Below, in pieces: positions 38,116 through 41,463 of a stretch of DNA of 64,000 nt. The stretch comes from Streptococcus suis S735. GTDB lineage: Bacteria; Bacillota; Bacilli; Lactobacillales; Streptococcaceae. Numbering within the stretch: position 1 is the first letter of the stretch; each line of letters begins with the position of its first letter. Position numbers and translations under genes: made by a program. The notes beneath the pieces were generated by a model. It had not been told where the DNA came from, ran no database searches, and saw nothing but the letters and a program-made list of their open reading frames with translations. The stretch spans positions 1,488,001 to 1,552,000 of the forward strand of contig NC_018526.1 in the NCBI RefSeq assembly GCF_000294495.1, written 5' to 3'.

Positions 38116-39459
38116 TTAAAAGGTTTGACGCTTGGCTTTACGTTCTGCACGACCCTTTGCACGCGCTTCAACTCGCTTGGTCTTGCGACGTTTTTCATCA
38201 ACAGCCCATTGAATTTTCTTCTTGTAGCCTGGTTTGACTTTTTTCTTTTTCTTCTTGACCAAGCCAATCATTTCCAAATCTAGTTTTTCACGAGATTTTT
38301 CACGGTTAGCACGGCGGTCACGGTCGTAGGTATCGACAAATTCGCCATTTTTCATTTCTTTTGGCAAGAATTTGATATTGAGTTTTTCTAGCTCTCGAAT
38401 ATCTGCATCATCGCTTGGCTGATAAAGGGTAATGGCAATGCCTGATAAACCATTACGACCTGTGCGCCCCACACGGTGAACAAAGAAGGAAAGATCCTGT
38501 GGAATGGCATCATTGATGACATGACTGACGCCCTCAATATCAATCCCACGTGCTGCTAAATCCGTTGCAACAATGTACTGATAGTCCAAGTTCTTCACCT
38601 GGTTCATCATCCGCTTGCGCTCACGTGGAGGAATATCCCCATGAATCTTTGCGACACGAAGACCGTTCGCAGTCAAATAGCTATGCAATTCATCTGCACG
38701 TGTCTTTGTATTGACAAAAATCATGGCCAAGTAAGGTTGCATGAGCTTGGTTACTTCCAAGATTTGAGCATTACGGTCACGCCCCTTGGTTGAAATCAGC
38801 CAGTTTTCAATGGTATCCGAAATGACCGTATGGGTCTTGATTTGTTCCATGACTGGATTGGACAAGTATTTTTTCAAAAACGGTTGGAGTTTCTGCGGAA
38901 TGGTCGCTGAAAAGACCATAAATTGCAAGTCTTTTGGCAGGCTGCCAGCAATCTTATCAACTGTTTCCAAAAAGCCCATGTCCAAGGTCATATCTGCCTC
39001 ATCAACCACAAAGGTTTTGGCTTTATGGATAGCAAGGTCACCTGATTTGACCAAATCATAGATACGCCCTGGTGTCCCAACAACAATGTGAGGCTGACTA
39101 GCTTGAAGCTTGTCAATTTGACGGTTCTTATCCGTACCGCCAACATAATTGGTCACACGAACTTCTGTGTCCGAATGACTAGCCAACTGGCGTGCCGCTT
39201 GATAAATCTGAGTAGCCAGTTCACGAGATGGGGCTGTAATAACAGCCTGAACTTGGTCCAATTCCTCATTTAATTTTTGAAAAATCGGGATCAAGAAGGT
39301 ATGGGTCTTACCTGAACCTGTTTTTGATTCCCCTATCAAGTCTCGCCCTGACAAAACAACAGGAATCAATTTCTCCTGAACTTCTGTCGGCTGGACAAAG
39401 TTAATTTCTTTCAAAGCCTCCTGAATATAAGGCTTGAGTTTCATATCTGTAAATTTCAT
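38116..39459 (-). CDS. cshB: DEAD-box RNA helicase, CshB-like
   Basis: 447 residues. Q-motif start, ATP loop ESKTGSGKTHTF (about 44-55), VVDEADMTLD as motif II, FSATIP as motif III and VGRTGRNG as motif VI are present. The C-terminus is very basic (KKKKKKVKPGYKKKIQW, ending RAERKAKRQTF), which would bind RNA. Second DEAD-box helicase type of streptococci, for mRNA decay or ribosome assembly in the cold. AAAGAGG precedes the ATG. Confidence 0.88.
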   Translation of the reverse strand: MKFTDMKLKPYIQEALKEINFVQPTEVQEKLIPVVLSGRDLIGESKTGSGKTHTFLIPIFQKLNEELDQVQAVITAPSRELATQIYQAARQLASHSDTEVRVTNYVGGTDKNRQIDKLQASQPHIVVGTPGRIYDLVKSGDLAIHKAKTFVVDEADMTLDMGFLETVDKIAGSLPKDLQFMVFSATIPQKLQPFLKKYLSNPVMEQIKTHTVISDTIENWLISTKGRDRNAQILEVTKLMQPYLAMIFVNTKTRADELHSYLTANGLRVAKIHGDIPPRERKRMMNQVKNLDYQYIVATDLAARGIDIEGVSHVINDAIPQDLSFFVHRVGRTGRNGLSGIAITLYQPSDDADIRELEKLNIKFLPKEMKNGEFVDTYDRDRRANREKSREKLDLEMIGLVKKKKKKVKPGYKKKIQWAVDEKRRKTKRVEARAKGRAERKAKRQTF

Positions 39460-39513: not shown

Positions 39514-39535
39514 AAAAAGGACGGATACCCGTCCT
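39514..39535 (-). terminator. Terminator of the EcsC-like gene
   Basis: AGGACGG (39518-39524) and CCGTCCT (39529-39535) with an ATAC loop; the A-run at 39514-39518 gives the U-tract on the minus strand. It lies within a few bases of the stop codon. Confidence 0.85.
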
Positions 39536-39537
39536 AA

Positions 39538-40371
39538 TCAACTCTCACTTGCTTCAGTAAATTCTGCCTCAATAATTCCAAGTTCCTTCTCTTCTTCCAA
39601 ACTTGCTTTAAAGGCCTCAGTGAGTTCTAATTCGCCATCAAAATCACCATTTATTTTTTTCACAAATGTGTCTGCCAACATCCCTCCCATGGGCTGGAAG
39701 GTAAAATAGGTCAAACCTCCTGAAATCAGACCACCCAAAATAGGAACTGCATTGGCAATGGTCTTTTCAACAGTCTTTTTGGTAATTTTCACACCAATCA
39801 CTGCGGCTACCTTTTTCACCAAGGGATACCAAGTTGTCTTGGTCAAAGCCTGCATAGCTACTTTTTTACCGATATTAGCTCCGACTGTCTTGGATACTTT
39901 ATTGAGAAGAACTGCTGAACCACCTGCTCCAAACATGACACCAATGTAGGCAATAATGCGGATTTGAACCTCTTCTGAAATTTCCTTCCCTTCACCAACA
40001 AATAATTCATCTTCACCAAAAAGATAAGCGATTTGTTGCGACAAATTCAAGGCAAAACCAAAATACTGAGCTATATCAGCAGTACCTGCCGCCACCGCTG
40101 TAAATGGATTCCCCGGTAAACCAGCTGCGAAAGAAATCAAAGATGTTTTCGTAGTCATATCATTAATGATTTTTTCAGCTTCCTTACGCAAAGCTTTTGT
40201 AGTGAAGACCGCCGTTGGTCCATCCGCAATAATTTTATCTAGATAGGGACTATCTTTAAAACGAGTCTTCAAAAATTCTTCCCGATTGACTTTAACCATA
40301 GGAAGTTGACTAGCAGCTGTCATGGTTTGAATAACCACTCCATATAACTGTTCTTGATTGAATTGTTCCAT
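39538..40371 (-). CDS. EcsC-family protein under a poly-G promoter
   Basis: 277 residues. The central block ISFAAGLPGNPFTAVAAGTADIAQYFG plus LSQQIAYLFGEDELF fits the EcsC family, whose name-giving member is encoded with an ABC exporter in Bacillus; its biochemical role is unknown. Two or three weakly hydrophobic stretches (around 75-95, 135-155, 200-225) suggest membrane association. Acidic C-terminus. GGAGG precedes the ATG. The gene sits between cshB and mraY with its own promoter and terminator, so it is an independent unit. The promoter spacer contains G11 and is a likely on-off or rheostat switch. Confidence 0.75.
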   Translation of the reverse strand: MEQFNQEQLYGVVIQTMTAASQLPMVKVNREEFLKTRFKDSPYLDKIIADGPTAVFTTKALRKEAEKIINDMTTKTSLISFAAGLPGNPFTAVAAGTADIAQYFGFALNLSQQIAYLFGEDELFVGEGKEISEEVQIRIIAYIGVMFGAGGSAVLLNKVSKTVGANIGKKVAMQALTKTTWYPLVKKVAAVIGVKITKKTVEKTIANAVPILGGLISGGLTYFTFQPMGGMLADTFVKKINGDFDGELELTEAFKASLEEEKELGIIEAEFTEASES

Positions 40372-40397: not shown

Positions 40398-40429
40398 ATT
40401 TTACCCCCCCCCCCGACCATATTTGTCAA
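40398..40429 (-). promoter_or_regulatory. Promoter with 11-G tract in its spacer (probable phase-variable)
   Basis: On the minus strand a consensus TTGACA (40424-40429) and TAAAAT (40398-40403) flank a 20-nt spacer made of AATATGGTC plus G11 (C11 at 40404-40414 on the plus strand). The best spacing is 17, which would need G8. Slippage by one to three bases would raise or lower activity. The predicted start site is about 20 nt before the EcsC-like start codon. Confidence 0.8.
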
Positions 40430-40432
40430 GGT

Positions 40433-40456
40433 AAAAAAACAGCATTTCTGCTGTTT
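40433..40456 (-). terminator. Terminator of the rsmH-mraY operon
   Basis: AAACAGCA-TTTC-TGCTGTTT stem (40437-40456), with the A-run at 40433-40439 giving the U-tract on the minus strand, directly followed by the EcsC-like promoter. Confidence 0.87.
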
Positions 40457-40464
40457 CTGACATT

Positions 40465-41463
40465 TTATAGATAAAGAATAGCTAGGGTAATCAAGCTCAT
40501 GATGAGACCGACTGACCAGAGGAAAAAGTCAACTTTCCACTCGCTCCATTTTTCAGCTTTTCCGGTCAAACCTCCAAGCTCCAAATGGTGATGAAAAGGA
40601 GTCATACGGAAGATACGACGACCTTCTCCAAAGCGTTTTTTGGTGTATTTAAAATATGAAACCTGCAACATAACAGAGGACGTTTCAATGACATAGACCA
40701 GGCCGATAAGGAGGAGAGTCCATTCCTGACGGAGGGCAATTGAAATAGTTGCCAACATACCGCCGAGAGCCAAGCTTCCCACATCCCCCATGAAAATCTT
40801 CGCTGGTTTACGGTTATAAACAAAGAAACCGAGCAAGCCACCAATCATGGTCACACAAACTAGAAGAATATCAAATTTTTGCTCATTGAAGGCGATGACA
40901 GAGTAAGCTAGAAGGCTGATAACAACTGAGATAGAAGCCAATCCATCAATGCCATCTGTCAAATTAACTGCATTTGAAAAACCGACCAGCCAGAACAGAA
41001 CAAATGGGAAATAGAGAACTCCCAAATGTACCATGTGACCAAATACATTCAATTCTCCGCCACCTGCTCCTCTTACGTGGACAAAGTAGAAGACAATACC
41101 TCCTAAAATTTGTAGAGCAAGCTTTTGTTTAGGATTAAGACCTTCATTTATTTTACGGAAAATTTTTAAAAAGTCATCCAAAAATCCTACTACACCATAA
41201 AGGGCAAGGATGAAGAGGATGGCAAGGACACCACCCGTCAACAGTTGAAAGGCCGTTGCAAACAACAAGCTGACAAGAATCGCAACAACGAGAAAAACTG
41301 TTCCCCCCATTGTTGGTGTACCTGCCTTAAACTGATGTTGTTTCACATCTTCGTGCATCTGTTGCCCCTCAATGCGTTTGGCTTGATAAAATGTAATAAA
41401 TCGTGGGATTAAGAGAACGGTTGCTAGAAAAGCTACCAATCCCGACATAAGTGCGAATTGCAT
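40465..41463 (-). CDS. mraY: MraY, phospho-N-acetylmuramoyl-pentapeptide transferase
   Basis: 332 residues, ten membrane helices; makes lipid I from UDP-MurNAc-pentapeptide and undecaprenyl phosphate. Signature residues: [12 protein letters not shown] (Asp-Asp pair), [14 protein letters not shown], and [12 protein letters not shown], plus [14 protein letters not shown] with its His cluster. One base from pbp2X. Last gene of the rsmH-ftsL-pbp2X-mraY operon. Confidence 0.96.

Follow-up and report, generated by a model that had tools for sequence, protein, structure and literature searches.

The window, a stretch of 64,000 nt from Streptococcus suis S735, contains a lone gene for a 277-aa protein between mraY and a DEAD-box helicase gene, all on the minus strand (Table 1). 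Read along that strand, mraY is followed by a hairpin running into Ts, then by ACC, TTGACA, AATATGGTC, a run of eleven Gs, TAAAAT, 26 nt that include a purine-rich, ribosome-binding-like stretch, and the ATG at 40371. Direct reading bore out the initial annotation, which had described TTGACA and TAAAAT 20 nt apart on the minus strand with 11 of these positions pure G. Its claim that the gene is isolated between terminators was also upheld: the likely mraY terminator was recognized by eye and is not listed by the terminator scan, that scan does give a terminator-like hairpin downstream, and with hairpins on both sides the gene therefore looks isolated. The promoter scan, which accepts only spacers of 16-18 nt, does not list the G11 element. 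In the 1.98-Mb genome, a G8 scan of both strands found no G or C run of at least 8 nt besides this tract.

Table 1. The promoter element and its immediate surroundings (positions in the window)
Feature	Position	Strand	Basis
DEAD-box helicase, downstream neighbour	38116-39459	-	Pfam
Terminator-like hairpin 3' of the PDC-S30 gene	39518-39535	-	Terminator scan
Lone gene, 277 aa, PADLOC candidate PDC-S30	39538-40371	-	ORF; PADLOC match
-10 hexamer TAAAAT	40398-40403	-	Read from sequence
G11 homopolymer within the promoter spacer	40404-40414	-	Sequence; whole spacer 40404-40423, 20 nt
5' part of the spacer, AATATGGTC (9 nt)	40415-40423	-	Read from sequence
-35 hexamer TTGACA	40424-40429	-	Read from sequence; kept in close relatives
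Hairpin with a T stretch after it, probably the mraY terminator, just 5' of the promoter	40433-40456	-	By eye
mraY, upstream neighbour	40465-41463	-	Pfam Glycos_transf_4 and MraY_sig1

The product had initially been described as EcsC-like, a label that did not survive: the window protein was unmatched by EcsC (PF12787) at E<=10 in hmmscan, a profile search of the whole genome was likewise empty at E<=10, and PDC-S30, a PADLOC family, is the better description. The match to PDC-S30 (E 1.8e-92) spans residues 5-260 of 277 and profile positions 6-262 of 268, and every one of the 37 aligned family members, the window protein among them, matches PDC-S30 and, more weakly, PDC-S29. No significant Pfam or NCBIfam family match was found for the window protein, PHROGs gave no match at E<=1, and the PDB sequence search gave nothing significant (best E 0.077). 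The AlphaFold model of the product is poor (mean pLDDT 64.7) and Foldseek of this model against the PDB returned nothing at E<=0.001; we therefore take no mechanism from the fold, although the low-confidence model and inspection by eye suggest a helical, partly hydrophobic protein. Both S. suis and Floricoccus have been reported to carry PDC-S30 (PMC12813430, PMC11758030), which the first of these papers groups with unvalidated candidate defence families.

Relatives of the protein were present in 106 of the 284 genomes of our genus sample, which holds one genome per species and in which assembled homopolymer lengths may be off by one. Upstream DNA was read for 30 loci, one per genome, comprising 11 close loci, 10 at 51-65% identity and 9 at 38-40% identity. 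The close loci (85-100% identity), together with gene fragments in one further genome (G254), bring the close genomes that carry the gene, whole or broken, to 12. Pure tracts occur in six of these, with lengths of G11 (window), G11, G10, G8, G10 and G10, whereas in three, all with the gene intact, the tract is absent and the spacer is fixed at 18 nt. One more genome combines an interrupted run (A before G6) with a broken gene. In S. suis 10581 and YS161 the runs are G6 and G5, the -10 hexamer is missing and the gene is broken; one MAG locus (L008) has a G10 tract, yet a stop codon inside the gene. A simple repeat thus lies between -35 and -10 and its length differs among related genomes (six loci), as in promoter-spacer slippage switches of the opc/R28 type. 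Over 2.4 kb aligned between the window and locus L003, 304 substitutions were accompanied by a sole indel, of 1 base, inside the tract. Two loci that are 99% identical (L001 and L002) have equal tracts of G11.

We propose that G11 forms the slippery segment in a promoter of the sigma-70 type, in which slipped-strand mispairing would gain or lose Gs and so shift the distance between -35 and -10, to 17 nt with G8, 18 with G9, 19 with G10 and 20 with G11. The altered spacing would in turn set the transcription of the single gene bounded by terminators; both slippage within a culture and this effect on transcription are inferred. The tract might instead tune promoter strength over evolutionary time, with no switching inside populations, as its different lengths between species and the shared G11 of the two 99% identical loci would allow. 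We consider this quite improbable, since a pure tract retained in several species speaks against simple drift and the opc tract of Neisseria meningitidis slipped in culture: of 17 clones of a strain deleted for mutS and selected with serum, five had moved from 11C to 12C or 14C (PMC6389960).

Beyond the close set, repeats in the spacer were less regular. At 51-65% identity, where 10 loci were read, the tract of S. entericus is G12 with an N directly after it, AT repeats lie 3' of TTGACA in three loci, and the other six show no comparable repeat; at the 9 loci of 38-40% identity, no G or C run of at least 7 nt was found within about 1.5 kb. TTGACA and TATAAT lie 9 nt apart at the AT locus L012, 15 nt apart at L014 and 17 nt apart at L016, and the latter two, 96.7% identical over 976 positions, differ by six gaps, one of which is 2 bases in the AT repeat. 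The evidence from AT repeats is weak because the distance at L012 is only 9 nt and the alignment of the other two loci has five other gaps, and it is weaker than that from the G tracts. An IMG/VR match to the promoter string shared four Gs only, continued into unrelated high-GC sequence and was discarded as a chance match.

The same design recurs across the genus. The strict pattern TTGAC-N3..14-G8-N0..3-TANNNT, searched in the 284 genomes, returned 90 rows, or 85 distinct elements after five duplicate alignments were dropped, in 54 genomes, against one match to the reversed pattern. The number of Gs per element runs from 8 to 17, with G9 or more in 75 of the 85, and TTGACA is complete in 79. 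Spacers measure 12 to 24 nt, 67 of them 17-20 nt, with a mode of 19 nt. A longer non-G prefix tends to go with a shorter G run, compensating for it, and spacers are tighter than in shuffles (p 0.0003, or 0.012 once identical prefixes were collapsed). G runs of at least 9 number 344, in 120 of the 284 genomes, and with 75 elements of G9 or more, about one-fifth of such runs is therefore a strict promoter; a single genome (G066) has 28 of these runs and zero strict matches. In a sample of the order, the pattern was present in 9 of 34 genomes from Streptococcus, all of them part of the 284, versus 7 of 212 others, so that the poly-G class is enriched in Streptococcus yet not confined to it.

These counts bear on two further explanations. 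Chance or a sequencing artefact with no function might be suspected given that homopolymer lengths in assemblies are error-prone, but the tract is found in six related loci and the reversed-pattern control gave one match against 85 promoters genus-wide, on account of which we reject this explanation as having a negligible probability. The G run might also work through DNA structure or a bound regulator instead of spacing. G runs can form unusual DNA structures, and C directly precedes the tract in 67 of the 85 elements; AT repeats stand in for G in some orthologues, however, and total spacing is held near 17-20 nt because prefix length compensates tract length, which makes this account very improbable. 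The tract is, in our view, highly likely to be a functional, slippage-prone promoter element. The earlier call of a phase-variable promoter is supported in part, by the unequal tracts of the six loci, the lone indel against L003, the recurrence of the design at 79 other sites and, weakly, the AT repeats of three orthologues. The accompanying proposal that G11 makes a weak promoter and G8-G9 a strong one is not settled: spacers genus-wide concentrate at 17-20 nt (mode 19), so that G11, with its 20 nt, need not be an OFF state.

The genes behind the other promoters are mostly of a different kind. Of the 85 elements, 79 were fetched, the remaining six being the PDC-S30 gene loci, and the downstream gene was taken as the longest ORF starting at most 450 nt away. 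Genes were called surface-like if they had a signal-peptide-like start or an LPXTG-type motif near the end, a definition that was set after the proteins had been seen and that agrees with by-eye reading; on this basis 58 of the 79 were surface-like, compared with 4 of 57 ORFs in the window. Among the 79, a signal-peptide-like start was found in 58, an LPXTG-type motif in 25 and a YSIRK-type motif in 20. PspA-like signal-peptide genes (by eye) lie behind G8-G10 promoters with two recurring prefixes in several genomes (L161, L170-L172, L189-L191, L212 and L213).

Of the 21 non-surface genes, ten were scanned with PADLOC and ten with Pfam, nine being common to both. At L149:359-1189 in genome G051, a G10 spacer promoter precedes a gene that matches UzuA, a defence protein in PADLOC (E 1.5e-51), and at L168:5507-5965 in G135 the small protein encoded after a poly-G promoter matches PADLOC's BnzA weakly (E 6e-5). 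DivIVA-like genes follow poly-G promoters in four genomes (L166 by Pfam; L162, L165 and L192 by eye), and genes read by eye from translation as GalE-like have a poly-G spacer promoter in four (L203-L205 and L210). A LytR-CpsA-Psr domain gene (Pfam; L177:4410-5903 in G197) and a CpsB-like gene (by eye; L144:4898-5641 in G009) also lie behind such promoters, where capsule or wall-polymer operons are possibly switched. Apart from the UzuA, BnzA, LytR-CpsA-Psr and DivIVA-like genes, the scanned non-surface genes had no PADLOC or Pfam match at E<=0.001.

The surroundings of the PDC-S30 gene and of its relatives were examined for defence genes. A total of 146 flank ORFs were listed, of which 109, from 30 loci, were scanned together with PADLOC; ten flank proteins, picked for size, were scanned singly. 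In this uncontrolled joint scan 115 PADLOC families were matched at E<=1e-10, and the 25 of these matches that were listed are mostly restriction-modification methyltransferases. Defence-gene neighbours were seen among distant relatives (L060, L055, L057 and L059): the PDC-S30 relative lies between brxC and pglX (BREX) in a Lachnospiraceae MAG, adjoins a DpdF-like gene in Alkalibacter and a type I methyltransferase gene in Enterococcus italicus, and is one ORF away from a type III restriction gene in a Bifidobacterium. Four of the ten singly scanned flank proteins had no match, and one, at L067, had a mad3 match covering a small part only.

In streptococci the gene stands alone at differing sites, with housekeeping, sortase, RadC or repressor genes as neighbours (ten flank proteins, Pfam), and Pfam names no defence gene among three window neighbours or these ten streptococcal flank proteins. 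Twelve relatives that lack the gene or have it broken were compared at this site: in eight, one of which was judged by eye, the interval between mraY and the helicase is without the gene, two have kept fragments, and two show no helicase after mraY in the DNA stretch examined. This patchy presence and the defence neighbours would fit a mobile single-gene defence.

Although the promoter switch may be real, its product could be an envelope or membrane protein rather than a defence protein, the PADLOC label being misleading. Such a product would suit mraY and the helicase as window neighbours, the mostly housekeeping neighbours scanned in other streptococci, the prevalence of surface proteins behind poly-G promoters and the weak EcsC resemblance of the family, in which PF12787 hits 9 of 37 members at E<=0.1 (lowest E 9e-4). 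The window protein, however, shows no signal peptide or LPXTG motif in its translation, by eye, and matches PDC-S30, several relatives have BREX, Dpd-like or restriction genes nearby, and presence is patchy, at unrelated sites. We regard a non-defence product as unlikely, and action of the PDC-S30 product against phages as fairly likely.

Our preferred reading is that slipped-strand mispairing switches promoter spacing in front of a solitary candidate anti-phage gene that is probably mobile, and we hold it with somewhat more belief than doubt; the fact that most other poly-G promoters drive surface proteins rather than defence counts against this combination. The three close genomes with a fixed 18-nt spacer, the six more distant loci lacking a repeat, the equal tracts of L001 and L002, the unvalidated status of PDC-S30 and the non-defence neighbours in streptococci weigh on the same side. 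The product would probably be a single-gene anti-phage effector, and switching would let a population keep cells both with and without a costly defence, an anti-phage action and a fitness logic that we infer here. For a wider reading we see about even chances: streptococci may share a widespread poly-G promoter-spacer switch that places adhesins of the surface, certain envelope or capsule genes and solitary anti-phage genes under one kind of stochastic control, which would bet-hedge the coat as well as phage immunity. The anti-phage genes in this wider set would be PDC-S30 and, in one genome, the gene with the UzuA match. If the switch on PDC-S30 is real, the phage sensitivity of S. suis-like bacteria would differ between cells of one clone, with a bearing on phage therapy and on defence repertoires deduced from genomes, as a gene found in a genome may still be switched off. 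A genus-wide class would, in addition, make the phase variation of streptococcal surface proteins predictable from sequence, and testable through G counts in existing reads.

Slippage that alters promoter spacing is an already known mechanism, from opc and R28. Homopolymer runs of about the length of G11 are hypermutable in other bacteria, and in N. meningitidis the transcription of porA, too, is set by the length of a promoter homopolymer. What is new, as far as the open-licence literature searched shows, is the PDC-S30 cargo and the genus-wide streptococcal poly-G class; among the open-licence matches listed, no title dealt with poly-G promoter spacers in streptococci or a slippery PDC-S30 promoter, which does not prove absence. 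Our locus resembles PADLOC PDC-S30 in its near whole-length profile match, and a slippery promoter is not mentioned in the available parts of the two papers on this family (PMC12813430, PMC11758030).

The R28/Spy1337 tract of S. pyogenes belongs to the same genus; according to the available text, its length is strain-dependent and 9T versus 10T strongly alters transcript level (PMC7098570). It is a T tract between divergent surface-protein and regulator genes, and is neither poly-G nor linked to defence. Bifidobacterium breve shares Gram-positive poly-G slippage with our locus, but the pilus switch studied there changes the reading frame of a coding sequence; the authors also mention G-tracts elsewhere that lie in promoter spacers (PMC9187656). 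Relatives of S. equi have been described with an invertible promoter (PMC2654543). The likeness to opc lies in a promoter homopolymer whose length sets transcription (PMC6389960). Both opc and porA drive Gram-negative outer-membrane proteins, whereas the Streptococcus locus drives a candidate defence gene. In the Pgl system of Streptomyces, phage resistance is phase-variable by changes acting on the pgl genes; defence is under phase variation there too, while here it would be the promoter of a lone gene that switches instead.
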